This document shows positions 33,201 through 62,038 of a stretch of DNA of 64,000 bases, piece after piece. Every line of letters begins with the position of its first letter. Positions within the stretch are counted from its first letter, which is position 1. Location of the stretch: NCBI RefSeq assembly GCF_000003815.2, contig NC_049996.1, positions 3,362,119 through 3,426,118 of the forward strand, in the 5' to 3' direction. This stretch comes from Branchiostoma floridae. Lineage: Eukaryota; Chordata; Leptocardii; Amphioxiformes; Branchiostomatidae. The notes under the pieces are model-generated. The model had not been told where the DNA came from and made no database searches. It worked only from the letters and a program-made list of their open reading frames with translations. The position numbers and the translations under genes were made by a program.

Positions 33201-36200
33201 GAGTTATTTTGGGATTTTTAGCCATTTTTAACTAAAAATGTATACTTTTGGCTGCTATGCCCTTGTATTGAAACCAAATGACCTAAAATTCGGCACGAAG
33301 GTGTATAGGACAAGTGCCCACAGTACTTCATTTTCTCTTTGAGCAAACATTACTTCAAATTGTTGAATTTTGGGATTTTTTCAAGGATGAAGATGGATTG
33401 CAATATGCTGTATTTGCTCCTAAGCAAATGTCGGCCTTTCTAGTTATATATAAAGTTTGTGTGGAATATAAAGCTTTTATGGTTCTTCTTGTCGCCCACC
33501 TGACCCTCTGCGTTATCATTCATTCGTGCTCTATGTACAAATTATGTTATGATAAATGTCATTGTCATCACAAACCTGTTGGGGTTTCCCTGTGGCTCTG
33601 CTGCTCGACTACCTTTTGGGTTTCTGACGAAGTCCTGATGGTTGATTTGTTTCGTTCTTGTTGCTCCACTAAGCGTTCTGCCATGGTTTCCTTGAATTCG
33701 TCTGGCTCCTCTGTAAGCACAAAACAAACGTCATCTATTGCACTTTGTAGTACCTAAGTCTATTTTAATAATTTCATTTTCAACTAGGACTAGGACTAGG
33801 ACTAGGATCAAGACCAGCTCCAGGACCAGGACCAGTACCAGGACCAGGACTACGACTACGACTAGGACACAGTTTTCGAGAACTTGTAAGATATCTGCAG
33901 AAATGAAGAGAAGATATCACGGCATAGCATATGTTGATATGCCCATACAGCAATCAAAGTTCGGACCTTTTGCCTTCTGCCAAGTTGTGGTCATCACGCT
34001 TGGTGAAATCTCGATGCCGTCCGTTATCAGTTCATCCTCCACAGCCTCCTCTCCCGTCAGCCTCCTGACGACACACGTCTTCCCGGATCTGTACTGACCA
34101 ACCACAAGGCCGCGCGTGTTGTGTACCGGTCGCGCCCCCTGGCGGCAGGCCTGGAAGTACAGCTGCTGCATGCCAGGACCACGCAGCTGTATTTCGAGTG
34201 GAGCACTGCTGTCTTCTGTTTCTCTGCTGTTTCCCTTTACGATAGACACGAAGCAGACTGGTTAACTTTCTTGATATAATAAAAGCTATTCAATACGTAC
34301 GCACATACGCCATACGTACATGTATGATAATCTCCAAGCAGATCCTACTGTAGTATAAGATAGTTTCAAAAGATGGCAGAGGAGTGAAGCTGATGTAGCC
34401 AAAAACACTCCTAGGCCGGCTAAATAGCTCACTCAGAATCAACTGGAAACTCACTCACTCACTCAGCCCCTCTAAACCCGGCCTATTGTAACTCTGCGTT
34501 ACACTTAACACCTCAACATATCAAACGCCTGTAGTAATCATCAACTCTTACCCCATCTGTTCTGTCTTCTGTCTTCTGTGCTCCGGCCTTCATGAGGAGT
34601 TCAGCAACACCAACATGTCCTCCTGAAGCTGCCTTGTCAAGTGGTGTGGCTCCATACTGTGAATGTAAGGAATAGAGATGATGTAGAATAGCAAGTGAAC
34701 TCATTATCATAACAAACACTATGTGTGTAACGTTTAACACTCAAACATATCAATCACCAGTAGTAATAAACAACCCTTACGCGATCACTAATGTTCAACT
34801 GTGCTCCAGCCTCCAGGAGGAGTTCAGCAACACCAACATGTCCTCCTGAAGTTGCCTTGTGAAGTGGTGTGGCTCCATACTGTGACAGTAAGGAATAGAG
34901 ACGATGTTGAATGGCAAGTGAACTCATTATCATATTAAACACTATGTGTATGACATTTAACACTCAAATATATAAATCACCAGTAGAAATCATCAACCCT
35001 TACCTGATCCAAACTGTCTAACTGTGCTCCGGCCTTCAGGAGGAGTTCAGTAACACCAACATGTCCTCCTGAAGCTGCCCTGTGAAGTGGCGTGACTCCA
35101 GACTGGGACAGTAAGGAATAGAGACGATGTTGAATAGCAAGTAAACTCATTATCATAACAAACACTATGTGTGTGACGTTTAACACTCAAATATATCAAT
35201 CACCAGTAGAAATCATTTACCCTTACCCAACCCGAACTGTCCACCCGTGCTCCAGCCTCCAGGAGGAGTTCAGCAACACCAACATGTCCTCCTGAAGCTG
35301 CCTTGTGAAGTGGCGTGGCTCCAGACTGTGGCAGTAAGGAATAGAGACGATGTAGAATAGCAAGTGAACTCATTATCATATTAGACACTATGTGTGTGAA
35401 GTTTAACACTCAAATATATCAATCAACAGTAGAAATCATTAACCCTTACCCAATCCGTACTGCCCACCCGTGCTCCAGCCTTCAGGAGGAGTTCAGCAAC
35501 ACCAACATGTCCTCCTGAAGCTGCCATGTGAAGTGGCGTGTCTCTATGCTGTGACAGTAAGGAATAGAGACGATGTTGAATAGCAAGTGAACTCATTATC
35601 ATAATAAACACTATGTGTGTGGCGCATAACACTCAAATATATCAATCACCGGTAGTTATCATCAACTCTTACCTGATCCAAACTGTCTAACTGTGCTCCA
35701 GCCTCCAGAAGGAGTTCAGCAACACCAACATGCCCTCCTGAAGCTGCCCTGTGAAGTGGTGTGGCTCCAGCAAGAGTACTACTCATTATTATATCATTAC
35801 AATATGTGTGTGGCGTTTAACAATCAACTATATCAATCACCAGTAGTAACCAACAATCCTTACGTCATCCGTAATGTCCAGCCGTGCTCCAGCCTCCAGG
35901 AGGAGTTCAGCAACACCAACATGTCCTCTTAAAGCTGCCTCGTGAAGTGGTGTGGCTCCAGACTGGGACAGTAAGGAATAGAGACGATGTAGAATAGCAA
36001 GTGAAGCTTTTAAATCATGACAAAAATACGGCAAATATGTGTGAAGTTTAACACTCAAACATGCCATCACCAGAAGTAATTAAGAACCCTTACCTCATAC
36101 GTACTGCCCACCCGTGCTCCAACCTTCAGGAGGAGTTCAGCAACACCAACATGTCCTCCTAAAGCTGCAATGTGAAGCGGTGTGGCTCCAGACTGTGACA

Positions 36201-37016: not shown

Positions 37017-37404
37017 ATATAACTGCAAACTGGAATGTTATTGATACGCTTACTTATGAATTATCTGAAGGCTCAAGACGAGCACCACAGTGAACCAGTG
37101 TCACAGTGAACAGTGGGCCGATTCCAGCTTATTCAAAATAGTCAAATTTAGTTTGTATTTCATTTTCATAGTTTTTAGAGGAAATGTGATAGCCCTTCTT
37201 TCCCTTTCCCATATCACTTTACTCAAGTTTATTCCCGAAGGTTAACTGTAAACAAAGTAAAAAGAAGTGGTATACATTATAGAAAGAAAATGAGATTTAA
37301 AGGGAAAAACGTCTATTCTAAAGGCTTCTTTTCTGTACGCAGGGCGAGATGAATTGCCCAACATTTTCATAGAAAAAGGGGTTGGACGACTTAACTTAAA
37401 CTAA

Positions 37405-37872
37405 GGGCACAACGTTTACCAACCGTACGTGGATTTTGCCAGGACTTATTTTGAGAGGCCACGTCATTCACTTTTTTCTCAAAACTCATTGCCTTAAGCA
37501 TCCGTCACTAGCATGAGTATGCGGTCTGCATGCAAGTTACGCAAATGGTGATCATGAGTTGTACGTGCCTACAACGTACGATCTCTGTGCGATTGCCATG
37601 TTACCGTATACATACACGTGTTGCGTGCGTACCGCTTCCTTACTAACTCTACTCTCTGTACGGGGCACACGCGTCGCCCGTACTGGCTCGTACGGGGAGG
37701 TTGAAAGCTTTTCATGCACTTAACGTTCTATGGCGTGTCTGCGGTGCCCCGAATCCGTTAGATTCCATACGATTTCGTACAGACGCGGTATTTACCAAAT
37801 ACGGATCCCAAAAGATTGCCCGCGTTTTTGTACGTAGACATCACGCAGTTGCAAGTACGGCGGGTTGTGCCC
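37405..37872. mobile_element. MITE with GGGCACAAC..GTTGTGCCC ends, upstream of gene A
   Basis: Ends AAGGGCACAACGTTTACC and CGGCGGGTTGTGCCC are inverted. The interior contains many CGTACG words. Relatives lie at 40596-40884 and, as the duplicated counterpart, 62679-63155. It lies in the putative promoter region of gene A in both copies. Confidence 0.75.
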
Positions 37873-38013
37873 TTAGCTTTAAGCAAGAGGATTGTTTTTT
37901 GTTGGTCAGTGAAGGTGTGAGAAGCTTTTGTTAGTTTCAAGGAAAAAATTTCTTTTTCCAGAATTGTCTTGTAAATATTGACCAATAAAATGTCGTTAGA
38001 TATGTATTAGGAT

Positions 38014-38019
38014 TTTATT
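38014..38019 (-). terminator. Poly(A) signal of the upstream ankyrin gene (copy A)
   Basis: AATAAA on minus about 95 bp after the TGA at 38113-38115. In copy B the equivalent place (about 63295-63305) reads AAAATCAAAAC, so the hexamer is lost there. Confidence 0.5.
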
Positions 38020-38112
38020 TTCATTCCAACGACCCTAAGTCTTTTTACCACCATGTATAAACAAAATATCAATCATTGCTTTCATTTGAATAGAGCTAGC
38101 CCCAACAGATTA

Positions 38113-38226
38113 TCAGACAACGGAAGACTTGTATACAACCCAGTGGTAAGCATCAGGATTGACCCCCTCCGCTAACAGCTGCTTCACTCTGTCCGTGTCT
38201 CCTTCCCCTGCAGCATCCAACAGTGC
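38113..38226 (-). CDS. Terminal exon of an upstream ankyrin-type gene (copy A)
   Basis: Acceptor gatatctctacag, then ALLDAAGEGDTDRVKQLLAE and GVNPDAYHWVVYKSSVV, TGA. The helix-turn-helix pattern (A..GD.....LL..GV.pd) is an ankyrin half-repeat, phase 0 like the other family exons. Its stop separates it from gene A, so it is best read as the last exon of a third gene whose body lies further right or is lost. It could also be a decayed first exon of gene A. Confidence 0.6.
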   Translation of the reverse strand, partial: ALLDAAGEGDTDRVKQLLAEGVNPDAYHWVVYKSSVV

Positions 38227-38449
38227 CTGTAGAGATATCAAGAACAACTGTCAGGACTCATTCAAACAGAGCAACATATTTTCATCTATAAATGATTTTC
38301 TCTTTTTCCCTTACATGCGTCACAGGTTCGTATAGTCCTATCATTTAATGCTGCGGGTTTATGAAATTTCCTCATTGATTATGTAAATTAGGATTTAACT
38401 TACATAATTACCATGTAATTAAATCAAGCATTATTTAATCTATCTGCAT

Positions 38450-38760
38450 ATAAAAAAATCACGATGATACCTTTCTCCCTTCTTGAGTTATCATATCTTT
38501 ATAAGTCTGAAACTAAACCAGTTCCTGTAGTTCCAAAACAAACGCTAGGGGGTCAAAACCTGCACCTCTTACTCTTTAAAATCACGACCACGGCATGTCC
38601 AGAACCCGAGATACCGAACTCGGACGTTCCGCTGTAGTACTCTAGCAAGCCGGTAGCTGCCCAAATCTAATATTTTTGAGGTCCTATGAAGGCCTACCGA
38701 TGCAACATATCAAATATCACGACAATCCATCCACGCCTTCAAGAGTTATACTGTACATTT
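38450..38760. repeat. Dispersed repeat preceding CA tract
   Basis: GGGGTCAAAACCTGCACCTC, CCAGAACCCGAGATACCGAA and ATCACGACAATCCATCCA recur at 63780-64000, and in weaker form at 1400-1700, 24430-24600 and 26460-26590. Probably one old transposon family with a CA-rich end. Confidence 0.65.
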
Positions 38761-38774
38761 ACACACACACACAA

Positions 38775-38821
<47 letters not shown>

Positions 38822-39205: not shown

Positions 39206-40587
39206 TGCCTACGGTTCATGTCTTTTATCATAGGAAGACATGTAACCTACCCAGACTTTGTCACCCATGCCTGATCAAGCCTACACACAGGTCCGGCCCA
39301 ATAACACCTAGTATGACACCTGCTTGTCACACAAAGTCAACTGCTTTCTATCCTGTAACGCAGAAACACACATACTATTAGAATGCAGCATTGGTGGAAC
39401 AGACTGGAATCACACGTACTCCTACCAGCATACACAAGTCTAGCCCAGACACGCCTGATGTATAATCATGGTCATTAAATCGTTTGCACACATGGATGAA
39501 AACGGTATTGCTAATGGATGACGAAACCAAAATACAAAATTTTCTGTTTATATTCCAAAACCAAGATAGCATTATTCAATCAACATACACGTTCGCATTT
39601 GCACAAAATATACACAATTTTCCTGATATTGGACATTACGTCATCAAAAATCATTCTTCAGACTCGAGGATTTGGTTGCGAGGTGATCTAATTATGCATA
39701 TAAAGCATGTCAACTAGTTCATAAACTACGGTTCGTGAAAAAACTTACTTTTGAGAAGCAAACAATGCTTATTATACTGCTTAATCCTATACTGCTTGAC
39801 TTCCTTTAATTACAACATACTACAATATTTCCTTTCGCGGCTCTTCACGAGTACATTTTTCTTGAGCCACTGTGCGGTGTTTCGAACTGGTTGCCATTTG
39901 TATGTGGCGTCACTTACATATCAAATGGGATTACCTTGAAACAACATCCCAGAGTCTGAAGAATGGGTTTTGATGGCGCAATGTCCAATAACAGAAAAAG
40001 GGTGTATATTTGGTGCAAATTCGAGCGTGTATGTTAATTGAATTACTTTTGTTTCTTACGGTGTTAGGGGAATGAAATGGATAAAAAACAAGTACTACTA
40101 GTTTATATTTAAGTTTATATATAGTTTATATGTTAGTCTAATAACAAGATTCTAGCTGTGTGCTACAGTAATTTGCTAGTCTTTGTAATTGCACAGTTAC
40201 GCCTACCGATAGGTGCACCGTTACTCACCTGTAACTTCCGGGTTCACCTGAACTTTTCCAGAAGTGTCTTGCGAGAGATTGACTACCTTTTCCTAGCCTT
40301 AAGACCTCAGTTAGGTGCTTGAACTTACAAGGAAACGAAGCCTGTCAGCTCAGACGTCCTAAGACGTCCACGTAAGGCCCCACGGCACCGTTAAGTTCGT
40401 TACTTCCGCAGGTGAGAAGGGAAAAAGTAACCAACAGAACTCACATGATTTACCCGATGACGTATGCAGAAGCCGGGGTGAATGACCTCGTGACGTGTTG
40501 CCCTTTTGGTCCGTGTTTATGTTAATTTAGATAATCATTAACGTTATGTAATACTTGTGCTCAGAATGCATACATCGAATACTCCAT
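39206..40587. other. Intergenic between duplicate units, no gene recognised
   Basis: No exon-like frames. 39720-40120 is AT-rich; 40200-40510 is mixed composition. Nothing identifiable. Confidence 0.45.
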
Positions 40588-46474: not shown

Positions 46475-46574
46475 NNNNNNNNNNNNNNNNNNNNNNNNNN
46501 NNNNNNNNNNNNNNNNNNNNNNNNNNNNNNNNNNNNNNNNNNNNNNNNNNNNNNNNNNNNNNNNNNNNNNNNNN
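46475..46574. other. Assembly gap (100 N)
   Basis: Exactly 100 N, inside the right arm of the foldback. Confidence 0.99.
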
Positions 46575-47616: not shown

Positions 47617-48842
47617 TCAGTCAATCAATCCACAGACCCGCAGCAGGTTTTGGTGCGACTCTTCCCAGTACTTGGACTCCAGGAGCTGCTTTTTGAACAA
47701 TGCTGCTTTCTCGAATTCTGCTTCAGAGTATTCCAAGGTGTCTGCGATCTTCTTGGCCCATTCTCTTGCATCCTCAACCTGATCGGTCTCCCTCACACTT
47801 GTTTCAACGATCCTGTACCTCATGTCTGGATGACACTTCTTCTCCTTAATCAAGTCCTTGATCATATCAGCCAGTCCTGACTTGTCAGAGATGAGTACAG
47901 GGATGCCCGCTGCGATCGCCTCCAGGCCGATCAGTCCGAACGGCTCGGCACGGGACGGCATCAGGACCAGGTGGGCCTGCTTCATGTCTTTAGCGATGTC
48001 CTCCTGGGTTCCACACGGCAGCAGCGTGGGTTTGATCTTCCCACTGTGCAGGTTTTCCTCGAGGATTTTCTTGCTCGCTTCCCAGCCATCTTCGTCTATC
48101 CCGCGAACCCGCAGCTTGACGTTTGGGATCTTCTCTACGACCTCCCCAATGGAACGAGCTGCCAGGTCGTGACCTTTCAGCTTTTCCACTTCGGTCACCC
48201 TCCCGACAGTCAGCACAACTTTCTCCCCTCCTCCTGGTTTTACAGAGATGGCTTCGAATATCGGAGATGGTCTTGGAAGGAAAATCAGGTGTTCTGTTGG
48301 TTTGCTGTCTCCAAGCGACCTGTACTTCGTCTCGTAGTGGTCGTAGATTCTTCTTCCCAGAGAGAACACGGCATCTGCGTTCTTGGTGTCTTCCAGGATG
48401 TCTCCCACTTTCTTCCCCGCAGCCATCGCTTTCTGAGCTCCCTTGTAGTGCTCCGTGTCTTCTGGCATGTCGTGGTTGAAAAGGACCAGCTTTGCGTGTC
48501 GACAGCGGTTCTCTTGTATGCTCTTCGCAGCTTCACTTGTGACCTCCGCGTGGCCTACAATGCACGTCAGATCCTGCGGTATATCTGGATAGTGAATGCT
48601 GTGGTAGTCAGTTAACCATTCCAAAGATGGCGCCTTCTTCTTCCTTGAACTTTGGACAGGCAAATGCAGAATGACACCGTCCTCTGTGGCACACCTCTTG
48701 TCGTCTTCAGATGCTTGCAGAGCTGTACTATGGACTGTAGCGCCATGCTGATGCAGGAACTGCGCCACCTGACGGTTGACGGTCGAAGTGTCTTCGTGGA
48801 ACGTACCGTACTTATCGCTTACCAACAGAACGGACGTGGCGG
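47617..48842 (-). CDS. Gene B GT4-type glycosyltransferase exon
   Basis: A single 1226-nt exon, phase 1 in, ending in TGA. It encodes a full GT-B fold. The N-terminal Rossmann half is TSVLLVSDKYGTFHEDTSTV, RQVAQFLHQHGATVHSTAL, DLTCIVGHAEVTSEAAKSI and ADAVFSLGRRIYDHYETKY. The C-terminal half is KVVLTVGRVTEVEKLKGHDL, VKLRVRGIDEDG, ILEENLHSGKIKPTLLPCGT, and LVLMPSRAEPFGLIGLEAIA with the E-x7-E donor-binding motif, then GIPVLISDKSGLADMI. This is the pattern of GT4 retaining glycosyltransferases, many of which use UDP- or GDP-sugars. Acceptor of this enzyme unknown. The size (about 400) equals a complete catalytic unit. Confidence 0.9.
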
Positions 48843-51800
48843 CTGCAAAAATAACGAAAACGTTTCACCATAAATCAAATATTACAGACAGGACGAATGG
48901 AAGGCAAGAGACCCATCAGCTGTTTTTAAGGAGCAAAAGGATGGTTTTCCTAAATCTATTCATTTGCTATAAGACGTGTAATGCAGCCACTACCAGGCCA
49001 TGAATCGGTGTCAAGGTGCCACTGCAAATCATTTTGTCCAGATGGCAAGTATCTGAAAAAGTGCACCAACCTATTCAGGGGTGTAATATATAAATGTAAA
49101 TTAGTTTTGGTCAGTCCACATTGCTTCAGATGAATTGCTTCGATTGGTTACTGGATTCAATAGAATATCGACAATGATTATCAGATTGTTGTGAAAATGA
49201 TGTCTGGCAAATATCTTTTTAATTATTTCTTTCACATCACATCAAGACCCTATCCATACCTCGTTCGGGTATCGAGGAGGCACTGTGACTGGGCTGTTGC
49301 ATTTTGGACTTTGTCTCTCCATCTGTGGTCGAAGTAAAGTAGTAATATGTAAGTAATGTCCTTATGTTACAATTTTAAGACTTATGTTACAATTTTAAGA
49401 CCATATATCCGTGCACAAAATAAAGCGCTTACCAACAAGCTTTCGATCAGTCCTCTGATCCTTCTCAAGTTGAAATGACCCAAAACCTAAGACACACATC
49501 CGGAACGGAAGTGTGACGTCAGTAAAGGGTCAAAAGTGCTGTAAGTAATGTCATTTTACTTTCAAATACGCTCCAATATGGATCTGTGCATTCTAGAATT
49601 GATCAAACTAGTCGTGTTCTTTCTAAAAGTAATGAAAATGATGATTCATATGACATATCTAGTCTCCAACCGGTTCTTTCGGTCAGCAGACCGTACCCAA
49701 GATGCTGCTCCCCCTCCCCCATGGATAACAAAGCCAAGTATTTTCTATTGCCTGTATCTGACGACAGTTAGATTCAGGCACACAAATGATGATAGTTTTA
49801 CCTTTTCCTGGTTTCATTTCCAACGCCAGGCTTTTGTCGATCTCGGCTCCATCCCTCTGCAGATGCCTGCTTATCTCATCTGCCAAACGAAAAGATTTTG
49901 AGCACGATGTATACGGGTAAAGCTGGAATGCACGTTACAGTCATCCTCCTACGCAGGGACATCCAACAGTCAAACTGCCTGTCTGGATGTGCACTGCTCT
50001 TTCAACCATCACCCTTAGTTCCTGTGGACGCCCCCCCCCCCCCAAACCAGCTGTCAGCCAATCAGAGAATAGGCTTTCCGTTTTCAAAAGCTATCTCGCA
50101 TGTACAGGGGTAACCTCATTAATATTTATAAGCAGGGCGGTCAGGAACCAAGGGTGATGGTTGAAAGAGCAGGGCACATCCAGACCGGCAGTTTGGCTGT
50201 TGGATGTCCCTGCGTAGGAGGATGGTTACAGTAAGGGGTAACACTTTGTTCTTCATTGATTTGTGTTATCCCAGAGAGTTACCATATTGTACCCAGAGCA
50301 TGTATCTGCTTATAGGGGCAGGCAAGTGGTGTTTTCAAATCATTTTATAAAGCTACTGTTTGATGTTCTTACTTGTTCACAACTGATCAATGTCACTTAA
50401 TTGGTCTTTACGCTAAACACAAACATCAGAAAATCGTCGTAGTCGCCGGAAAGGAAATGATAGACCAATGACTTGTCGGGCAATAACCCTAGTTGACGCA
50501 GCCGCAGAAGGCCCAAATTGAGTCAGTATTTTAGCCTATTTTCGACTTGTAGCAGGAAAATGTAAGAAACATTTGATATTGGTGAGACAGTGTAGGGTGC
50601 AGACGTTCAGATTAGGCAAAAAAACAAATTTTTTTTAGGCCTGTGCTGACCCCTGATTTGAAGTGGTCAGTCCCTAAATTGAGGTCATGAGATGCCAAGA
50701 TGGCAGCACATTTGAAGGCTACGTGAACTTTCGCTGGTCGGAATTTTAAAAAAATCAGACTTTTGGACACTTGAGATAGCGGGCTGCTGTGTGGGGTGAG
50801 TTCTTCTAACCTGGAATGTTCACGGATGAGGTTATGACACCCTGAACTTGCCTATGCCTATTTTTACATTATCGCCAATACAGATTTCCATTAGTGTTCA
50901 CTGCTCTGTACCTTCGTCAAAGTAGAGGAAAACTGCCGCTGATGGGATCCGGCGTCTGGGGTCAGTTAGTGGTTCTCCGGACTCAGCATGATGTCGACTG
51001 AAATGGACGACTCCTTGGCTGTACACCTTCTTGGCTGGGTATGGAGGCTTCAGAATCAGGACTACGGTGCACCTGTTGCAGTCAGCCGGCGGGAAGTAGA
51101 AGTTGATACCACCTGAAACATCTAGGGGGACGCCAATCACTTCTTTACTCTCGTCAAACTTGGCATCTATCCTTTCTTCCTCACCCATGACGATGCGTTG
51201 TTGAAACGGCGCAACCTTCAACATGTTGGCAGCTTGGAAAAACTCTGTTGGATCATCGTCCTTGTGAACACACATGAGGTGGATGTTGTTGTTGTCTGTT
51301 GTTGCCTGGTTTGGGTTTATGATAAGGAACACTTTGTCTTCGGTGTATCTGTTCCAACACACCTGGAATGCCTCAGTTGCGTCTGCAGATGCGGATGTTG
51401 ATAATACCTTTAACTCTCTCGTAGCACTTTCTTCTGCTCCCCCTTGTTTGGATGCCTCATCCTGCTGACCTGGTTTTCTTGAAATACTTTCTTCTGCCGC
51501 AGCCTCATTGGCTGTCTCATCAGGGTTCCCCGATTTTGTTGTGATGGTTTCTTCTACTGACCCCTGACTTGCTGCGTCACCCTGGTTCCCTTGACCTCTT
51601 GTGATGCTTTCATCTGCTGCCCCCTGGTTGGTTGACTCATCAACTTTTCCCGGTTCTCTTAGGTTACTTTCTTCAGCTACCTCCTGATTGGCTGGCTCCT
51701 CCTGGTTTCCTGTACCGTCGCCACTAGAGGTAGAATTTTCGCCATCATTTCCACTTTCTTTGGCACCGGCAATCCTAACGAAGAAAAACGAAATCAAACA

Positions 51801-54800
51801 AAACAAGGCGAATTATTAAATAAAGCATATCAACAATCACATACATAGTTGCATAAATGTAAAAATAGATTTTTGACAATTCAAAACATATCAGACTTTG
51901 TACGTGAAACGAAAAATGATCTAAAACTTAACATAATATTCCTTGTTCATTACATCTTATTATACCCATTTCCTCCAAAACATACTAAAAATCTCATTTT
52001 AAAAAATTCCCTGGGGAATACTCAGATGATTCTACTACGCATGCGTGGAAAAATTCCTCACATGCCTACGAAAGTTTGGGAATTCTTGTCAAACGGTCGC
52101 ACACTATACTATTAGGCTCGCCCCTGGGGCGTCGCCAAAAAGATTGCTGTCTATTAAGGACCATGCATTACCCGCAGAAGTGTCTGGTTGTGAATGTCAC
52201 TGCGTCCTCTGTCTCTTGAAACTCCAGCCTTAGCGAAGTCCACTGGGGATGATGTGGCTTTCTCTCCATCAGGACGACTTTGTCTGCGTTGCAATCTTCC
52301 GTCTTCCATGCCCACGGCAGGGTAACTCTCACGTCCTGTAAGAAATCTTTCTCCTGTTCCTGGTGCACGGTCAGTACCGGCGTCACAGCTGAGAAAGCGT
52401 TTGTCAAGCAGTCGTCAATGGGCAGCTTCTCGACCTTACAAAAAAGATAAAGTGGTTAAGAAAACAATACAGCTTCTTGTCGGATTTGGAGTGACATGCA
52501 ACTAAGTACATGCCATTATAACAAAACTACAAAATTGTTTATAGTTTGAACATCTCTTACCTACACATAAACCAACTGAGTGCCATTGCAAAAATGATCA
52601 TGAAGAATCTACAAAGTAGACCAAAAGTTTACCTCCAAGGACAGGGACCTTTCCGTCTCGACGCATCCTTCTGGAAACACAAGAGTGACACCGTCCTCTT
52701 CAAGCGTGCAGCCTTCTGGTTTGATTGTGTACGTGTTCAGCATAACAGAGGACGACGCCTGTTGAAACGAAAGTGATATTATTTACAAAATGGCACAAAA
52801 TATGTATGGGGACATGTGATCATAATGGACGTTGCATTGTATCCACGTACCTTCCTTAGGATTTCTGCAGCAGTAAGACTGATTTTGGTACTGGACAGGG
52901 GTTCTTCGGTCATCGGTACTTCTGTAGATGGCATATCCAACATCCCAGCACAACGTCTGCCGAGCACCTCCAGCAAACGCTCCCTGGTCCCTTCAGGATA
53001 GACGAAGACCGGAAACACCAGGTTCTTGTTCTGCACGGGGAACTCGTACCCAAGCGTAGACCAATGTTTACCATGGAGAGCCTGTGGTGTGATGATTGGT
53101 ACGACCATTCTGGCGTTACGTTTGAGAAGATGATCCAAGATCTTGTCAGGGAGGAACTCTCCTGGTTCGATGACGTCTTCGCAAACTGTTACACCGTACC
53201 TGTTGGACGACTTGTCAACCTGCCCCAAAAGTGGCTGGACGAGCTTGTCATTGTAGTCTCCAACGTGGATGATAACAATGTCATTCCCTAGAAATCAGAA
53301 AGTGATTCGTGAACATTTGATCGATGAGAAAACAGAGTGTCAGGCAAATAAGCTGTTATACAATACAGAGCTATTGAATATAGAAACGGGGGGATAAAAT
53401 GGAAACATCCTCCTACGCACGGTCCCCAATGGCACTATCTGACTGCCTGTTTGGGCCCTGCTGTCTGGAGGCCCACCAGCGGTTACTGTGAGCGTCGCCA
53501 CAAACCAGCTGTCAGCCAATCAGAGAATAGGCCTTTCTTGGCCTTTTTTGTTTTCGAAAGGGATCTCGTAAAGGCCTGATTGGGCGCCTATTGACTGATT
53601 CCCATATAAGGGTAATCTCATTAATATTTATAAGCAGGGCGGTCAGTAACTGATCTGAGTGCTCCAGACAGCAGAGGTGACCACAAGGAGTTTCGACAAG
53701 ACTGTGGTCCCTCTGCGTAGTAGAATGAACGGAAAGATGAGTTTGAAGCAGTCATTACCTCTCTCTTCTCTGAGGAACATAGGTGCTCTCTCTGGCAGGC
53801 AAACCTCCACAGACGCGCCCAGCAAGCGACGACACACGTCTCCGGCATCGTTGACGGTAGCAACCAACTCTTGGAACCTGCTGACGAATGTGAGCTCGCG
53901 CCTGATCCGATCACACTTTGCCAGATTCAGCCCTCCACACGTCTCCATACAGTTCAGGACAGGACCGATCGTGTGGACTGCAGTGATGTCAGCTAGTCTC
54001 ATTGTGGGCTCTATCAGCACAGGTCCGTCACCACCTGCGTTTTCTGCACGTGCAAAATGTTTCCATTAGTTAGGTAGTCTCATGCCCTTCCTTTATCAAA
54101 GCAAATGTGTCATGCAAAATGAGAAAACAAACATGGTGTACCTGCATGGGACATCCCCTGTGCACCGCTACCACGCATCCAGACGGCGTTAAAGGCTTCT
54201 GGAATACTGATGTCAAAACTTTCAGTTAGCAACAGTACAGATAGTAAAGTAATAGGACAGTACACAGAAAGTGATCACCAGACACCCTCTTGCATGTATG
54301 GGCTAATCAAATGAAAGGGTATGATTTGCTAAAAAAAAAACATGTATAATTGGCCTCACCGACTGGACCCCATTGCCGTTTCTTGCCCGATGTCAGAGAG
54401 CGGGTGGAATGATAGTTTGCCAGCTCCTTCATCTGACTCCTCCCCGAAGCACCAGTCATACTGGATGGAGGGAATCCACTTCTCCTTGATCTCGAACAGA
54501 CAGCTGCTGAGGAACTTTCTAACGGGAAGACCCTGTGTGAACACCGCCTGGTCTTCAGCTTCAGCCGACAGAAGCTCCACCTTCAGGTAGTGCTTCACCT
54601 TGGTTACCACGAACTGTTGCTTTGCATCATCGGTAGGAAAGCGGCCGCAGCCTGCGAACACATGGGACTCTTCAAGACCAAACCTGCGCACACAGATCGC
54701 TTGTAGACGGTAGAACATACCACTTGGTAGGAACATGTTATCGAATTCGACATACAGAGGGTACCGGAATCTGCTCAAGTGCCCAGGATACAAGGTGCTG

Positions 54801-57800
54801 TCGTCAGGCTTTGCGGCCAGAAGAGATGGCACGAAGTAGATCTCTTCTTTCTCAGGCTGCTGCGTTGTGTCATCAAACCCACGGATCGGCGTGGCGTTGC
54901 AGATGAGGTAGTACTTCTCCATCAGTCGCTTCAGGAAAGGCTTGTTACGGAGTAGGTAGGGTTTCTGCATCTTCTGATCTGCTTTGGTCCAGATGATTGT
55001 CAACAACCTGTCACTGAGGATCCCTTCGTTCTCCAGCCTCCTCCACATCTCGGCAACCTCCCCACCCATGCTCCTGTCTTGTTGGTACTCAGGAACGGTA
55101 ATGATGGTCTTGAAGACGTCAATCATCACCTGGGGACGAAGGGCCACGTGATCACGGAGGACGGGTTCGTTGATGAAGATGATGTCACCAAGGTCGTGCA
55201 GGAAGGTCAAGATGTCGGCAACATGACTGTCGTCCGTGATGCCCACGTCATCACTCAGGGCCAGATCTACAGCATCTTGGAAAGGGCAGAAAGGGTCGTC
55301 CTCTCTCCTCTTGTCCATCAGTTTGGACTTCAGATGAAGCCAGGTTATCGGCACCTTCTGGCCCATGTACCACTGAGACTTCGCCACCTCACGGAGGTAC
55401 TCTCGGAGCTCGTCAATGTCGCTGTTGTCCTCGCTGAAGTTGTCGATGACAAAAATCTTTGGTAAGACGTGTTTGCCGGCAGCCATACCACTGATGTGGT
55501 CAAGTATGTCTTTCTTGTACTCCTCAATCTCAGACTGAAACCAAGAGCATAGATTCAGCTGATGAAGATATATTGATTGATTTGAGAAATCAAAATCAAC
55601 CAAGGCCAAATCATTCAGCCATTGATACAAAGTGAAAGCTCCCTGGAAACACAAGGCCAACCCCTACTCGTGTCTACATTGAAATTGAGAAGATGAACAA
55701 AGACCTAAGTGACGAGACCTCAGAGTAAGTAGTACTAGAGGCAACTCTGGACAGTACCAGCAGCCTTCTGGGTCAAAGCGCTACAGGACAAGCGCCATCC
55801 CGGCCATTGCAGAAACGCTGAACGAACTCTAAATGTACTTTACTTCTCAGTCACACTACTACAATTATGGCCTCCTCATGCGGACGTACGAACTCTTTTT
55901 TACAAAGTTGTCTTGTTTTAAAAGTCTGTATAAAGTCAAACCTGTAAATAGCGGGATTTCTTGAACGTAACAAATTTTGTATCACGTCGATTTTGTATTT
56001 CAAGTAGTAACTATTGTTTTAACAACGTTCATAAAGTTTTTCTAATTGATGTACTGTTCATGATTGTTATATCCTCGTAATTCAGCCCCATAGGCTGCCA
56101 AGAGGACTATTATGCATATTGCTCAATATTGCTCAATAAACCAGTCTACTACTACTACTACTAGTGATTTCTTCCATGGCATTAACGAAAGGTAGATTAA
56201 GATTTTCAAAGAATTCCATGTAGGGTTAAGTTGAAAATGAATAAATGAATGAATGAGGTGCTGAATACCTCGGTGACCATGTCCTTGTGTGTGAGGACCA
56301 AGACGATAGGTGGCTTGTCCTTCCGTTTGTGCACCAGGCCGTGTGTGCGAACTGAGTTCAGCCAGTGGTCCAGGTAGTCTAAACAGGTACGAGGTACAGT
56401 AGTTTATTTCAATCTCATCATTTTAACAATCATGCACCAGTAAATGTAATTCAAGTTCAATTTCAGTAGTCGCCATGTTCTGGCAAACGTTTACAGTATG
56501 ACGGTAAGCTCTCGTTTACCGTCATAATGTGACATTCAAGCGATACGTACCTCTTCCAGTGACTAGGTTGTCCGCTGATGCCTTGTAGTCCTGATCAGGA
56601 ACTGGGTCTGACAGCTTCTGCAGTAGAGACATGACAAGGATGTAGATCCCGCGGGGGGTGAAGAAGCACTGGTGCGAGCCGTAGTACGAGGCCTGGCCGC
56701 CGAAGTCCCAGATGGAGAGACGCGGGTGTTCGGCTGTTCCAAGCTGCTCCTCGGTTACGCCACCTTGGAGTCGCTCTTTTGCTTTCGTTATGACATCATC
56801 CGGAATGTTCTGTGCTTGCTGCTGTACTGTTACATCACCTTGTGGTCGCTGTTGGTGCTGTGATTGTTGTGATGTATCCTTGCCTGCACTTTCTGCTCTA
56901 CCTGGAAAGAAATCTTTTATGTTTTAATTGATCTTACTCGAAATGTAAAGAATGTGCCTGGACGATCTTCAGGTAGCCCCTTTCAAGGTGGTATCTTTTG
57001 GTTTTCCTGTAGGAACTACCGCTCGAGTATTTGGCTCGAGACCAAGAGGTCGCGGGTTCGAATCCGGCTGTCGTGTCACCGATCTTGTGCTCTTGGGAAA
57101 AGCACTTTACACGACTTTCCTCACTTTACTCAGGTGAAAATGAGTACCTAGCTTCGGCTAGGGCCGTCCCTCAGATAGGACGTTACATGGAGGTCCTGTG
57201 TCTGGGGAGAGCCATACCCCAGGCACGTTAAAGAACCCCCACACGATGGTGCGGTGTGAGATGGTGCAAATCTTTCCGTCTAGAATTGGTGATTCTCCAC
57301 AAATCACCCGGACTCCAGGAAGAATAGTGACATATAGTCACTAATAGAGATCTGTATAACCAAATCCAAACTAAACCAAATCCAAACTAAACCAAATCAA
57401 ACAAAACCAAACTACCAACTCAATCTGCTACTGGTGAACGTCGTTAAGCCCCAAAGGCAGAAAACATATCGAAGAACAACATTGAATATAAACAACTTAT
57501 TTTAAACTACACTGTCCAGGTCTATGTTTCTATTGTGCATTTCTAACTAATTGAGAAATGTAGATAAAAAAAGTTTCTTACTACTCTCTTCCAGCGTTGC
57601 AGTCTGTTGATTTTGTGTCTGTTCCTCACTATCTTCCATATTTGCTGTCTGTAGACTTCGTGACGGTGTCTCCTCTTTTAGTGGTTCATTTTTCTGCGTC
57701 TGAAACGTCTGCTCTCCTGTTTCTTCCTTTGGTTTTTGAATCCCAGCATCTTATGTGAACAAGATGAAACCAGTAAGACATCAATGGTACTCTAAGTCTT

Positions 57801-60800
57801 CCAATGTTCCTAAAATTCGAACCATACCAATGCGAATGACCATGCAAATGTAGCTGCCATCCTTCGTGTCCTATATAGCTATACATACAGTATATGTGGA
57901 CTATCAAGCTTTTATGGTTCTTCTTGTCGCTTGCTTGATCCTCTACGTTGACATTAGTGCTCTGTGTACATATCATGCTATGATAGACGTCAGCGTCATT
58001 ACATACCCGTTGGGGTTTTGCTGTCACTCTGCTGCTGGACTACTTCTTGGGGTTGTGACATTGTCAGTGTTACTGATTTGTCCCGTTCTTGTTGCTCCGC
58101 TAAGCGTTCTGCCATGGTTTCCTTGAACTCGTCTGGCTCCTCTGTAATCAAAACGTTATGTATTGCACATTATCATATAGCCAGGGGACGTTGACAAATC
58201 AGAAGTCCCCATTTCATGTTGGTTATGACGTCATAACACATGGAAAATAATTTAACAGCCGTGCATTAAATAGTTTCATTAACACACGTGTGTTAATGAT
58301 TTTGGAAAGCTTGAGCCAATCAGAAAGACAGACACGCAGGACTCAATCAGAATGAAAGATACATGAATCAGAATAGCACAGAGCTAGGAGGAAAGACCTG
58401 AGCCCGGAGAGAGCCTGATCATGAATACAGTTAATGAATACAGGAGTTTGCAAGTTTGTGTAGGCTATATAATAATAACGTTAATGACACGCCTGTTCCT
58501 CGGTGTACATGGTGTGATAACGCCTGGTCCTTTGCTATAACCACCTAATAAAACAAGGTGGATTCATTCGGTGGTTATAGCAAAGGACCAAGCGTTATCA
58601 CACCATATACACCTCGGGGCGGGTCATTAACCCTTAATTAATTGTTGTAGCTGAGGCTATTCTAATAATTTCATTTCCAACTAGGACATATTAAGACCCA
58701 ATGTTTTGTAATATACAGTTTTCAAGAACTTGTAAGATATCTGAAAAAACGAGTACCTATCATGGCATAGCATGTGTTGATATGTCCATACAGCAATCAG
58801 ATTTCGAACCTTTTGCCTTCCGCCAAGTCTTAGTCATCACGCTCGGTGAGATCTCGATACCGTCTGTTATCGGTTCATCCTCCACAGCCTCCTCTCCCGT
58901 CAGCCTCCTGACGACACAAGTCTTCCCGGATCTGTACTGACCAACCACGAGCCCGCGCGTGCTGTGTACCGGTCGCGCCCCCTGGCGGCAGGCCTGGGAG
59001 TACAGTTGCTGCATACCAGGACCACGCAGCTGTATTTCGAGTGGAATACTGCTTTCTTCTGTTTGCCTGCTGTTTCCCTTTACGGTACATATAAACTGGT
59101 TAACGTTCTTAATATGATAAAAGCTGTTATGTTTAAATTGTACGCCATACGTACATGTATGATAATCTCCAAGCAGATCCTACGGCAGCATAAGATAGTG
59201 TCAAAAGCTGGCAGAGGAGTGAATTCGGCATAGGAGTGTGTTTGGTCCTATTGGGTTCACTCCTCTGCCAGCTTATGATACAATGAGAAACACACGGAAT
59301 TATATATTTTGTTTGAAAGAAACAACCTTTTTGACACAATCAAAACAATATTTCCAACTTTTCACCAGCTAGTAGACTCCAAAAAACTACATTCCTGTTC
59401 AAATCACAGAACCCACTAATCATTAAAAACGTGGGACTTTCATCTGCCACTGGCTCCAAAGAAGAAGTCAAACCTCCCAGGAAAGAATGTAGAATCATGC
59501 ATATAGATAGCCATATAGAATAGACACTCGTTACTTTTTACTGTCTGTACCCTTGCAATTAGCCTATTAAGATCGTTCTTTGGACTTCGGCGGAGTATAG
59601 TCCGAGTCGACTGGAAACTCACTCACAAGCACACAAGAAAGTGTCCGCAGTGGTCGTGGGGTTCACATCAGCAGCAGCAGTGATCCATCGAAAATGCGCG
59701 CGTAAACCCAGCCTATTTTAATTGTGCGACACTCCAACATGTCAAACGCCTGTAGTAATCCCCAACCCTTACCCTGTCCAGCTGTGCTTTAGCCTTCTTT
59801 AGGAGTTCAGCAATACCAACATGTCCTTCTGAAGCTGCCCTGTCAAATGGCGTGAGTCCAAACTGTGACAGTAAGGGATAGAGATAATGTTAAATAGCAA
59901 GTGAACTTATCATATCAAACACTATGTGTGTGACGGTTAACACTAAGAAATATCAATCAACAGTAGTGCTCATCAACCCTTACCTGATCCAAACTGTCTA
60001 ACTGTGCTCCAGCTTCCAGCAATACCAAAAACAACACCAGCAACACTTAAAAAAATACCAATCACCAGTAGTAAGCAACAGCCCTTACCTTATTCATAAT
60101 GTCCACATCATTATACTAGATATACTAAATATGCATGACGTTAAACACTCAAACATGTCAAACACCTGTAGCAATCACCAAACATTACGGTAAATATGCG
60201 TGAAGTTACTCAAGCATGTCATCACCAGTAGGAATAAACAACCCTTACCCGATCCCAACTTCCCACCCGTGCTCCAGCCTCCAGGAGGAGTTCAGCAACA
60301 CCAACATGTCCTCCTGAAGCTGCCGCGTGAAGTGGCGTGGCTTCAAACTGTGACAGTAAGGAATAGGCGTGATCTGAATAGCAAGTAAACTCATTTTCAT
60401 AATAAACACTATGTGTGTTACATTTAACACTCAAACATATCAATCACCAGTAGTAAGCAACAACCCTTACCGGATATCCACTGTCCACCGGTGCACCAGT
60501 CTTCAGGAGGAGTTCAGCAACACCAACATGTCCTCCTGAAGCTGCCTCATGAAGTGGCGTGGCTCTAGACTGTGACAGTAAGGAATAGAGACGATGTAGA
60601 ATAGCAAGTGTACTCATCATCATATTAAACACTATGTGTTTGACGTTTAACACTCAAACATGCCAATCGCCAGTAGTTACCATAAACCCTTACCAGATCC
60701 GTACTATCCACCCGTGCCCCGGCCTTCATGAGCAGTTCAGCAACACCAACATGTCCTCTTGAAGCTGCCCTGTGAAGTGGCGTGTCTCCAACCTGTGACA

Positions 60801-62038
60801 GTAAGGAATAGAGACGATGTAGAATAGCAAGTGAACTCATTATCATAACAAACACTATGTGTGTGGCGCATAACACTCAAATATATCAATCACCGGTAGT
60901 TATCATCAACTATTACCTGATCCAAACTGTCTAACTGTGCTCCAGCCTCCAGAAGGAGTTCAGCAACACCAACATGCCCTCCTGAAGCTGCCCTGTGAAG
61001 TGGTGTGGCTCCAGCAAGAGTACTACTCATTATTATATCATCACACTATGTGTGTGGCGTTTAACAATCAACTATATCAATCACCAGTAGTAACCAACAA
61101 TCCTTACGTCATCCGTAATGTCCAGCCGTGCTCCAGCCTTCAGGAGGAGTTCAGCAACACCAACATGTCCTCCTGAAGCTGAACAGTGAAGTGGCGTGGC
61201 TTTAAACTGTGGAAGTAAGGAATACAGAGGATGTTAGATAGCAAGGGAGGTCTTTACCATTATCATAATACAATTAACATTAATAATTTTTTTTAACACT
61301 CAAACATGTCAAACACCTATAGTAATCATCGAATACTTACCTATTCCGTTATGTCCGCCTGTGCTCCAGCCTTCAGGAGGAGTTCAGCAACACCAACATG
61401 TCCTCCTGAAGCTGCCTTGTGAAAGTGGCGGGGCTCCATACTGTAACAGTAAGGAATAGAGATGATGTAGAATAGCATGTGAACTCATTTTCATAACAAA
61501 CACTATGTGTGTAACGTTTAACAATCAAACATATCAATCACCAGTAGTATGCAACAACCCTCACCTTATCCTCAGTGTCCGCCCGTGCTCCAGCCTTCAG
61601 GAGGAGTTCAGCAACACCAACATGTCCTCCTTCAGCTGCATTGTGAAGCGGTGTGCCGTCCAACTGTGACAGTAAGGAGTACAGAGGATGTTAGATAGCA
61701 AGGGAGGTCTTTACCATTATCATAATACAATTAATATTAATAATTTGTAACACTCAAACATGTCAAACACCTATAGTAATCATCAATCCTTACCCTATCC
61801 GTTATGTCCGCCCGTGCTCCAGCCTTCAGGAGGAGTTCAGCAACACCAACATGTCCTCCTGAAGCTGCCTTGTGAAGCGGTGTGCCTTCCAACTGTGACA
61901 GTAAGGAATATAGAGGATGTTAGATATCAAGGGGGTTCTTTTCCATTATCATAATACAATTAACATGCATAACTTTTACCACTCAAACATGTCAAACACC
62001 CTTACCATATGGCCGTCGTTTTCCTCGACTCTATCCAT
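47617..62038 (-). CDS. Gene B: ankyrin-Roc-COR-TIR-like-ZU5-UPA-GT4 glycosyltransferase
   Basis: Tandem paralogue of gene A with a different C-terminal end. Exons in coding order: 62006-62038; ankyrins 61794-61892, 61565-61663, 61108-61206, 60694-60792, 60471-60569, 60249-60347, 59773-59862; Roc 58810-59077, 58007-58141, 57582-57749, 56551-56901, 56269-56378; COR 54360-55534; 54142-54218; 53759-54043; TIR-like 52851-53287; ZU5 52633-52758 and 52172-52434; UPA 50912-51774; linkers 49802-49879 and 49260-49322; GT4 47617-48842. Phases all agree: 6342 nt, 2113 residues. P-loop 285-292; GT4 from about 1706, with Glu2005 and Glu2013 forming the E-x7-E motif. Two damaged ankyrin exons (61341-61440, 60917-61010) are assumed skipped. 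It keeps every Roc motif, so it is not an obvious pseudogene. The proposed role, a regulated cytosolic glycosyltransferase under a GTPase/ZU5-UPA switch, is inference. Confidence 0.85.
48843..49259. other. Intron of gene B
   Basis: Nothing recognisable besides splice sites (acceptor tatttttgcag at its 3' side). Confidence 0.5.
49260..49322 (-). CDS. Gene B linker exon 2
   Basis: 63 nt, phase 1 at both ends: GETKSKMQQPSHSASSIPER, a polar linker before the GT4 domain. Acceptor cgaccacag, donor AACGAG|gtatgg. Confidence 0.7.
49802..49879 (-). CDS. Gene B linker exon 1
   Basis: 78 nt, phase 1 in and out: DEISRHLQRDGAEIDKSLAL then EMKPGK. It could form a short helix. It has the same length and phase as gene A's linker exon but unrelated sequence. 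Acceptor gtttggcag, donor GGAAAAG|gtaaaa. Confidence 0.75.
49942..50224. mobile_element. MITE with perfect 8-bp target duplication (hAT-like)
   Basis: Ends CATCCTCCTACGCAGGGACA / TGTCCCTGCGTAGGAGGATG, exact inverted repeats continuing about 60-80 bp inward with a few mismatches. Flanked by GTTACAGT on both sides (49934-49941 and 50225-50232). 283 bp, no coding capacity. It lies in the intron between UPA and linker 1 of gene B. Confidence 0.9.
50233..50911. other. Intron of gene B, nothing recognised
   Basis: No exon, repeat or hairpin I can identify. Confidence 0.45.
50912..51774 (-). CDS. Gene B UPA exon with 20-residue repeat linker
   Basis: 863 nt, phase 2 in and 1 out. The first third is acidic low-complexity linker including five 20-residue repeats (51411-51710). 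The UPA domain follows: KVFLIINPNQATTDNNNIHL, FQQRIVMGEEERIDAKFDES, GINFYFPPADCNRCTVVLIL, LTDPRRRIPSAAVFLYFDE. The UPA part aligns with gene A residue by residue, but the linker is about 100 residues longer. Acceptor cttcgttag, donor GACGAAG|gtacag. Confidence 0.85.
51411..51710 (-). repeat. Coding tandem repeat, 5 x 60 bp
   Basis: Five exact-length 20-residue units, pattern G-N/Q-x-D/E-E-x-A-N/S-Q-x-x-A-E-E-S-I-x-R-x-P. Present in gene B only, between ZU5 and UPA. Confidence 0.9.
51775..52171. other. Intron of gene B
   Basis: AT-rich, no exon recognised. Confidence 0.5.
52172..52434 (-). CDS. Gene B ZU5 exon 2
   Basis: 263 nt. NAFSAVTPVLTVHQEQEKDF, VRVTLPWAWKTED, VVLMERKPHHPQW, ETEDAVTFTTRHF. 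Same domain half as gene A's 27088-27347 but clearly more diverged from it than the COR or TIR-like exons are. Phase 0 in, 2 out. Confidence 0.85.
52633..52758 (-). CDS. Gene B ZU5 exon 1
   Basis: 42 codons: TYTIKPEGCTLEEDGVTLVF then PEGCVETERSLSLE. Phase 0 at both ends, same length as in gene A. Confidence 0.85.
52851..53287 (-). CDS. Gene B TIR-like domain exon
   Basis: 437 nt. NDIVIIHVGDYNDKLVQPLL, YGVTVCEDVIEPGEFLPDKI, ARMVVPIITPQALHGKHWST, LGYEFPVQNKNLVFPVFVYP. Almost identical to gene A's exon. EPGEFLP resembles a BB loop (..PG....) better than gene A's KSGDDIT. The Trp-Glu spacing is again two residues longer than in NADase TIRs. Confidence 0.65.
53406..53727. mobile_element. hAT-like MITE, diverged relative of 49942-50224
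   Basis: Ends CATCCTCCTACGCACGGTCC / GGTCCCTCTGCGTAGTAGAATG. The interior shares CCAGCTGTCAGCCAATCAGA and TTAATATTTATAAGCAGGGC with the other copy. Flanks AATGGAAA (53398-53405) and AACGGAAA (53728-53735). Gene A has the empty site at 28619-28627. Confidence 0.85.
53759..54043 (-). CDS. Gene B helical module
   Basis: 285 nt, same phases as gene A. ITAVHTIGPVLNCMETCGGL, CDRIRRELTFVSRFQELVAT, CLPERAPMFLREER. Unassigned alpha-helical module between COR and the TIR-like domain. Confidence 0.75.
54142..54218 (-). CDS. Gene B short exon after COR
   Basis: 77 nt: FDISIPEAFNAVWMRGSGAQ then GMSHAG. Counterpart of 29051-29127. Confidence 0.8.
54360..55534 (-). CDS. Gene B COR-domain exon
   Basis: 1175 nt, exactly the length of gene A's exon and nearly identical in protein (a few replacements such as GQEVP/GQKVP, RGEDD/RREDD, GGFDD/RGFDD). 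Signature ILTFLHDLGDIIFINEPVLR. The open frame continues upstream of the acceptor into the intron (to 55660). The splice at ttggtttcag|TCAGAG... is preferred because gene A shares it. Confidence 0.9.
55735..56162 (+). mobile_element. LINE 3' end inserted in gene B intron
   Basis: The plus strand encodes RYRTSAIPAIAETLNEL then stop, typical of a CR1-like ORF2 C-terminus, with a 3' UTR (AATTCAGCCCCATAGGCTGC) and a (TAC)n tail. Copy A has the uninterrupted site at about 30616-30632 (AGTAAGTAGTGATTTCTTCC). Post-duplication insertion. Confidence 0.75.
56269..56378 (-). CDS. Gene B Roc exon with G4 motif
   Basis: 110 nt; LNSVRTHGLVHKRKDKPPIV, LVLTHKDMVTE. Counterpart of 31021-31130. Confidence 0.9.
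56551..56901 (-). CDS. Gene B Roc exon: Q-rich insert and switch II
   Basis: 351 nt; PRLSIWDFGGQASYYGSHQC. Almost identical to 31299-31649. Acceptor tctttccag, donor AGAG|gtacgt. Confidence 0.9.
57021..57409 (+). repeat. Full-length tRNA-derived SINE with target duplication
   Basis: B box GGGTTCGAATCC at about 57054-57065, body as at 401-790, tail of (AAACCAAATCC)-type repeats. Flanked by AACTACC (57014-57020 and 57410-57416). Copy A has the empty site AAACTACCAACTCAATC near 31941, so this is a post-duplication insertion and a useful reference copy of the family. Confidence 0.9.
57582..57749 (-). CDS. Gene B Roc-insert exon (Q/E/T-rich)
   Basis: 168 nt, phase 1 in and out; KPKEETGEQTFQTQKNEPLK then EETPSRSLQTANMEDSEEQT. 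Low complexity, 9 nt longer than gene A's. Confidence 0.8.
58007..58141 (-). CDS. Gene B Roc-insert exon (charged)
   Basis: 135 nt; EEPDEFKETMAERLAEQQER, then a Gln/Ser/Thr tail. Acceptor gattacag, donor AACGG|gtatgt. Confidence 0.8.
58180..58300. repeat. MITE-like fragment with short perfect palindrome
   Basis: TATAGCCAGGGGACGTTGAC..TTGGTTATGACGTCATAACA matches the element at 12238. 58277-58298 is a perfect 22-bp palindrome around ACACACGTGTGT. Confidence 0.6.
58481..58630. mobile_element. Near-perfect hairpin element, TTAATGAC ends
   Basis: Arms of about 62 bp: TGTGATAACGCCTGGTCCTT..TATAACCACC pairs with GGTGGTTATAGCAAAGGACC..GTTATCACACCAT. The loop is about 24 bp. Outer ends TTAATGACACGCC / GGCGGGTCATTAA, bounded by TTAA. 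Present only in copy B. Confidence 0.8.
58810..59077 (-). CDS. Gene B Roc exon with P-loop
   Basis: 268 nt; RGLVVGQYRSGKTCVVRRLT with complete G1 (residues 285-292). Counterpart of 33967-34234 with few replacements. Confidence 0.9.
59078..59772. other. Intron of gene B
   Basis: 59205-59275 forms an inverted pair (GCTGGCAGAGGAGTGAATTC / GTTCACTCCTCTGCCAGCTT). Copy A has one arm only (about 34370). No exon. Confidence 0.5.
59773..61892 (-). CDS. Gene B ankyrin-repeat exon block
   Basis: Intact phase-0 exons in coding order: 61794-61892, 61565-61663, 61108-61206, 60694-60792, 60471-60569, 60249-60347 (99 nt each) and 59773-59862 (90 nt; FGLTPFDRAASEGHVGIAEL). That is seven intact repeats against ten in gene A. 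Damaged units: 61341-61440 (1-bp insertion), 60917-61010 (acceptor lost) and two stubs at about 59994-60030 and 60089-60115 where only exon ends remain. The array is shrinking or recombining. Confidence 0.85.
59994..60115 (-). pseudogene. Remnants of two deleted ankyrin exons
   Basis: Plus-strand CTTACCTGATCCAAACTGTC TAACTGTGCTCCAGC ends abruptly in non-ankyrin sequence, and CTTACCTTATTCATAATGTCC likewise. Both keep a donor and the exon's last codons only. Internal deletions within the array. Confidence 0.7.
60917..61010 (-). pseudogene. Damaged ankyrin exon in gene B (same lesion as gene A)
   Basis: Identical loss of the acceptor as at 35673-35766, with the same junction GGCTCCAGCAAGAGTACTAC on the plus strand. 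Ancestral to the duplication or spread by gene conversion. Confidence 0.75.
61341..61440 (-). pseudogene. Frameshifted ankyrin exon in gene B
   Basis: 100 nt instead of 99. An extra A (plus-strand TTGTGAAAGTGGCGGGG versus TTGTGAAGTGGCGTGG) shifts the frame after YGAPPL and brings a TGA within the exon. Splice sites look intact. Either skipped, a sequencing error, or a sign that this allele is damaged. Confidence 0.75.
62006..62038 (-). CDS. Gene B first coding exon
   Basis: MDRVEENDGHM, donor CATATG|gtaagg, phase 0. Counterpart of 36984-37016. Confidence 0.65.

Follow-up and report, generated by a model that had tools for sequence, protein, structure and literature searches.

A GT4-conflict glycosyltransferase exon at the end of an ankyrin-Roc-COR gene of Branchiostoma floridae: a putatively exchangeable cassette with an altered donor loop

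What is a glycosyltransferase of the GT4 type doing at the end of a gene for a Roc-COR GTPase? The question is raised by a 64,000-nucleotide stretch of the Branchiostoma floridae genome (assembly GCF_000003815.2, contig NC_049996.1, positions 3,362,119 to 3,426,118, here called the window), in which a first-pass annotation had described a complete and seemingly competent GT4 exon fused to a Roc-COR/ZU5-UPA switch and reminiscent of effectors from biological-conflict systems. The follow-up analysis leads, with moderate confidence, to a joint reading: the encoded protein is predicted to carry, in order, ankyrin repeats, Roc, COR, a TIR-fold domain, a possible ZU5-like part and a GT4-conflict domain, and the GT4 exon would serve an immune-type switch as an output module that can be exchanged. 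In the window copy itself, the sequence indicates that sugar transfer has likely been lost or much weakened. The earlier observation is partly confirmed, and its interpretation partly supported.

Splice modelling joined 11 exons with GT-AG sites into one open frame of 1,658 amino acids (aa), from the second part of Roc through GT4 (Table 1); upstream of the ankyrin exons the gene extends past the window edge. The GT4 exon matches PF20706 over profile positions 1-385 of 385 (222.6 bits, E 1.1e-65) and is predicted to adopt a GT-B fold at a pLDDT of 93.2, so that the description of the exon as complete holds. On the spliced chain, Pfam reports GT4-conflict (PF20706, 2.9e-64), COR-A (3e-11) and Roc (25.8 bits), and the NCBIfam matches of the GT4 exon, as far as listed (25 of 26), are all to GT4 models and below the cut-offs of these. 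The fusion to a Roc-COR GTPase is likewise borne out: GT4 shares one open frame with COR and Roc, and the COR exon matches PF16095 (COR-A) at 48.1 bits against a cut-off of 35.3 (E 1.5e-12). GT4 also behaves as a single-exon unit elsewhere in the genome, where all 57 scored matches, drawn from 102 candidates, span profile positions 1-3 to 356-385 in one frame.

The remaining parts of the chain are recognised with varying clarity. The two pieces of Roc fall below the PF08477 cut-off of 27 (22.2 bits over profile positions 3-46 for the first part, scanned alone; positions 52-89 for the second); the homologue P0110, to whose residues 336-424 the first part is 84% identical, scores 37.0 bits. Ankyrin repeats exceed the PF00023 cut-off in all four frames scanned. 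A TIR fold at 52851-53287, missing from the earlier domain list, is seen by structure prediction, with Pfam silent, and the exon weakly matches (24-25% identity) tandem frames at C12:20.44-20.49 Mb of B. floridae. In TIR NADases the catalytic glutamate lies in a motif of the W-x3-E type; here a nearly invariant Glu81 stands six residues past Trp75. Of the ZU5-UPA claim, the first half stands weakly. A four-row profile that includes a distant segment of P0124 matches ankyrin ZU5 at 5e-8, the three-row profile without that segment matches nothing, and Pfam finds no ZU5 on the spliced chain. The FIIND of relatives aligns with the N-terminal ZU5 of P0124 (hhalign probability 58%, E 1e-4) and gives no meaningful alignment with the ZU5-like part of the window. 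For UPA in the exon at 50912..51774 no match was found in Pfam, among PDB sequences or against the UPA-FIIND of relatives, and that assignment goes by position.

Is this copy a working enzyme? In the alignment H97, H123, R214, K222, E299 and E307 are all intact, which upholds the earlier statement that the VGR..KG and E-x7-E motifs are kept: the donor-site Arg and Lys, the E-x7-E pair and the N-lobe His123 are in place. The verdict of apparent competence fares less well, the window copy carrying the substitutions G16E and G17D in the Gly-Gly of the beta1-alpha1 loop. Of 37 distinct B. floridae GT4 loci (the window counted) 33 have this pair, as do 14 of the 16 prokaryotic rows and 32 of the 39 full GT4 domains in P0110-P0175. 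Among the nine hemichordate rows it is found in five, and three of the others are gapped at the loop. The pair is retained in the nearest paralogue, L039, and in P0001 (B. lanceolatum) and P0003 (B. belcheri), and among these relatives the change is particular to the window copy. Eight substitutions are the window copy's own (14 in L039), and of the eight just the two in the loop affect columns with a conservation of at least 85%. PMC9883506 describes Gly16 of PimA and Gly23 of MshA as holding the donor pyrophosphate together with Arg and Lys. The second glycine of the family aligns to MshA residue 23 in a profile alignment, and since Glu-Asp replaces the glycine pair at this contact, donor binding is likely impaired; catalytic competence appears doubtful. 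Three other B. floridae loci without Gly-Gly (L005, L006 and L027) are candidate pseudo-enzymes.

Two points speak against a dead gene: the exon has no stop codon, and its dN/dS against L039 is 0.20 (0.17-0.26 in six other pairs), a value for purifying selection that averages over both copies since their split. The same value can be cited for an active enzyme, in which the donor would be held by R214, K222, E299 and E307 despite the loop change and invader or host molecules would be modified when Roc-COR fires. The six intact residues and the small share of window-specific changes in conserved columns (just two of eight) speak for it; acidic side chains at a glycine pair kept by 33 of 37 loci, one of them at a position that contacts the donor pyrophosphate in MshA and PimA, speak against it, and we hold this explanation to be unlikely, though the strongest of the alternatives.

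The case that the GT4 exon is an exchangeable end comes from its relatives. A search with the 1,658-aa chain, which scored the 7,991 candidates sharing most words with its first 500 residues, returned 76 proteins; COR-A and GT4-conflict occur together in 40 of them, all Branchiostoma. One of the 76, P0110 (2,165 aa), is 80% identical along the whole chain and reads ankyrin-Roc-COR-GT4. Other matches with the same chassis have Death (P0133-P0135) or CARD (P0153); P0143 and P0152 add Death and FIIND, P0143 also CARD. The genome of B. floridae holds 40 COR exon matches, of which 37 were entered, the other three being pieces of split frames, and at nine of the 37 places a GT4 frame follows 2-13 kb downstream on the same strand. 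L039 (C18:16.19 Mb) is an 87% paralogue with open COR, TIR-like and GT4 exons together and a loop-intact GT4.

A second gene on this chassis (ankyrin region, Roc, COR, TIR-like and ZU5-like parts), paralogue A, lies within the window. Its COR exon is 95% identical to that of the GT4 gene, and it carries a linker and a Death exon where the other gene carries a linker and GT4; in both genes a phase-1 intron precedes the linker and another precedes the GT4 or Death exon. The best splice acceptor is likewise phase 1 in 33 of 37 B. floridae GT4 loci. Because a Death exon stands at the place of GT4, both behind phase-1 introns, the C-terminal cassette is suggested to be exchangeable between chassis genes, and swapping may have proceeded through recombination in these introns. 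The Death exon is not terminal, since the splice donor after it calls for a short last exon, and an assembly gap (24757-24856) lies between it and the UPA-place exon of paralogue A. Two further tandem chassis copies (C18:3443031-3444317 and 3465646-3466830) have COR exons 92-93% identical, with no GT4 match close downstream among the genome-search matches listed. In P0129-P0132, also from Branchiostoma, a chassis of 76% identity is joined to a GT4 loop of another subtype, a further hint of tail exchange.

The same family can be read in another way, with GT4 as a sensor that binds a microbial nucleotide sugar or glycan and triggers Death, CARD or TIR, the loop change then being a shift in specificity. 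STAND-type proteins often keep their sensor at the C-terminus, and many relatives have Death, DED or CARD, another output, beside GT4. However, Death, an output module, takes the very place of GT4 in paralogue A, and the usual sensor end is already held by the ankyrin repeats; a sensor role seems improbable, slightly more so than an active enzyme.

As to where the domain came from, the GT4 protein search gave 109 matches. Those in Branchiostoma reach 84% (B. lanceolatum), those in hemichordates stand at 31-38% and the single one in Acropora at 28%; the best of the prokaryotic or metagenome sequences have about 30% over nearly full length. Conflict context was examined for four of the 16 prokaryotic tree rows: an Amycolatopsis locus (L043) reads NB-ARC-TPR-GT4 and an Actinomadura locus (L044) AAA-GT4, and in L045 and L046 the GT4 frame lacks an NTPase. 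In a 76-row tree the 26 amphioxus and nine hemichordate rows group together (100/99) inside a 51-row clade (100/100) that also takes in the prokaryotic rows and Acropora; the last branches apart with uncertain placement, and several branches of the tree are long. Apart from this clade fall 24 presumed metabolic GT4 rows, so labelled from partial C-lobe matches only; P0104, assigned beforehand to the conflict set, fell on their side. After removal of eight long or short rows, 34 deuterostome rows still form a clade (100/99) and 20 rows the metabolic side (100/100). Kinship to bacterial conflict-type rather than animal housekeeping GT4, proposed in the first-pass annotation, agrees with these trees and with the NTPase-GT4 loci. 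Given an amphioxus and hemichordate clade with prokaryotic relatives, apart from presumed metabolic GT4, a bacterial origin of the amphioxus GT4 is likely, with donor and number of transfers not fixed by the trees. A profile match by itself says less: the PF20706 cut-off of 26 bits is exceeded in 14 of 14 control genomes and in 100 of 100 genomes of the L065 bacterial family, so that a match above it does not alone mark a conflict-type GT4. The search of these 100 genomes was aimed at prokaryotic Roc-COR-GT4 proteins, and the matches it listed were partial, in frames mostly under 500 aa.

A housekeeping GT4 (ALG2, ALG11 or PIG-A type) joined to Roc-COR by recent exon shuffling would share the GT-B fold, but is disfavoured by tree and profile scores and very improbable: the ALG2-like amphioxus exon (a single row named by eye, on a long branch and with 49% of the columns) groups with the presumed metabolic GT4 and not with the window clade, and the 222.6 bits of the window compare with at most 67.1 bits, partial, among the matches listed in the 100 L065-family genomes. 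Equally improbable is an assembly chimera or pseudogene tail, to which the three 100-N gaps of the window, one of them nearby (46475-46574), might point, since the frame is open and the sequence between 47617 and 59077 is free of N runs. The same combination of COR, TIR-like and GT4 exons recurs at C18:16.19 Mb, and other Branchiostoma gene models join COR and GT4, which speaks against a chimera.

Under the preferred reading, of GT4 as the exchangeable output of an immune-type switch, a ligand would be recognised by the ankyrin repeats, Roc-COR would alter the state of the C-terminal half as it binds and hydrolyses GTP, and the TIR and GT4 ends would then be released to act. Most paralogues keep the loop, and in most members GT4 may use a nucleotide-sugar to glycosylate molecules of an invader or of the host. 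The window copy, in which transfer is probably weak or lost, may instead act via its TIR domain or have a part as scaffold or decoy. The GT4 exon would spread among chassis genes by recombination in phase-1 introns. More tentatively, and with rather less than even confidence, a fixed chassis (ankyrin, Roc-COR, TIR fold, ZU5-like) into which GT4, Death or CARD is plugged via phase-1 introns may be an independent animal re-invention of bacterial Roc-COR proteins with interchangeable warheads, some GT4 domains, that of the window included, being pseudo-enzyme decoys or regulators.

Several points weigh against this account. An immune function is proposed from domain company alone, and PADLOC gave no match for the GT4, TIR-like or COR exons. 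The ZU5 assignment, itself weak, hangs on the one bridging segment of P0124, and the linker exon was not found at L039. As regards the loop, its residues vary elsewhere too, in L005, L006 and L027 and in the seven of 39 full GT4 domains that have no Gly-Gly; the base changes, read from the assembly, may reflect allelic variation or a mistake in the assembly; and the dN/dS of 0.20, averaging both copies since the split, is uninformative on selection after the loop change and also compatible with an active enzyme. What the locus offers is a putative example from nature of cassettes being swapped among genes of an innate immune type, in which a loop-intact GT4 (L039) and a loop-deficient one (the window) stand beside like COR and TIR-like exons, so that a role as enzyme output, sensor or decoy becomes directly testable.

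Apart from these genes, the window holds an XK-related protein frame (10413-11597, plus strand; PF09815, 1.5e-28) and, near the 5' side of paralogue A, a simple repeat that yields a long, low-complexity frame of the VCVC type (38746-39246, minus strand).

Table 1. Features of the GT4 gene and of paralogue A in the window.
Feature	Position	Strand	Basis
Terminal exon, GT4-conflict glycosyltransferase domain, ends in TGA	47617..48842	-	PF20706, fold, splice acceptor and frame
Codons 16-17 of GT4 exon, Glu-Asp for family Gly-Gly, donor-phosphate loop	48790..48795	-	Alignments; MshA Gly23 correspondence
Linker exon, 78 bases, phase 1 on both sides	49802..49879	-	Splice frame
Exon with low-complexity linker and domain in UPA place	50912..51774	-	Frame; identity by position only
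ZU5-like, second exon, weak support	52172..52434	-	Profile comparison
ZU5-like, first exon, weak support	52633..52758	-	Profile comparison
TIR-fold domain, one exon	52851..53287	-	Structure prediction
Exon between COR and TIR-fold domain, no family found	53759..54043	-	Spliced chain
Small exon between COR and TIR-fold domain	54142..54206	-	Spliced chain
COR domain exon	54360..55534	-	PF16095
Roc third part, THKD motif	56269..56378	-	Spliced chain
Roc second part, DFGGQ motif	56551..56901	-	PF08477, below cut-off
Roc first part, P-loop GQYRSGKT, approximate exon bounds	58810..59077	-	PF08477, below cut-off; P0110 identity
Ankyrin-repeat exons, several, approximate bounds	59716..61945	-	PF00023; identity to P0138 and paralogue A
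Paralogue A, same chassis: ankyrin region, Roc, COR, TIR-like, ZU5-like	25611..38709	-	Pfam, identity
Death-domain exon of paralogue A, in the place of GT4	21365..21640	-	PF00531, E 1.2e-17

No paper on an amphioxus Roc-COR-GT4 protein was found among the titles and abstract starts listed from the open-licence literature, Figure 6A of PMC8195603 lying outside that scope; nor were a chassis with swappable tail, its TIR part or a loop-deficient copy found there or in section 15 of PMC8195603, and the term "glycosyl" is absent from PMC2575513 and PMC12373286. The GT4-conflict family and its conflict role are already known; as far as those sources go, new here are the picture of a chassis with a swappable tail, the TIR part and the loop-deficient copy.

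Among known proteins, the retaining GT4 enzymes MshA, BshA, SPS and PimA are about 15% identical, and the donor-phosphate glycine is missing in the window copy. DAPK1 combines ankyrin repeats with Roc-COR, a likeness that extends to other Roco proteins and to a DAPK1-like match from Ptychodera in the chain search (P0176); no kinase was found in the window gene, which has GT4 or, in paralogue A, Death toward the C-terminus. PIDD and ankyrin share the layout ZU5-UPA-Death, echoed here by the possible ZU5 before the output end and by the Death exon of paralogue A, whereas UPA is placed by position only and GT4 stands in the place of Death. We take the authors of the GT4-conflict description to be Kaur, Iyer, Burroughs and Aravind, and the AP-GTPase of their account to be of the Roc type.

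The 2021 description of GT4-conflict presents it as an effector of bacterial conflicts that animals have recruited, and proposes lateral transfer; the members of the family are predicted effectors, for which section 15 of the paper names no tested target (PMC8195603). The window gene resembles this family in its full-length profile match, in prokaryotic kin beside NTPase switches, in the expansion in a marine invertebrate and in the fusion to immune-type domains; it differs in that this copy is without the Gly-Gly loop and is joined to Roc-COR, a TIR fold and possibly ZU5. PMC12314368 describes Acropora glycosyl transferase group 1 genes with NACHT, LRR, TPR or ankyrin, which share the expanded animal GT4 with repeats and the tripartite, immune-like layout, with NACHT in the LRR type there and Roc-COR in amphioxus. 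The nearest parallel in architecture is AP-GTPase-COR-GT4, which section 15 of PMC8195603 (Figure 6A being outside our scope) names for prokaryotes only. As the amphioxus GT4 groups with hemichordate GT4 in a tree that covered no published prokaryotic Roc-COR-GT4 proteins, a separate joining to Roc-COR fits, and the amphioxus fusion may be independent of the prokaryotic one. Both types, as far as that section describes the prokaryotic systems, share a Roc-COR switch with C-terminal domains, in amphioxus putatively interchangeable, that include GT4 and TIR; leucine-rich repeats are found in the prokaryotic proteins and ankyrin repeats in amphioxus, where the gene is split by introns and its parts lie as exon cassettes.

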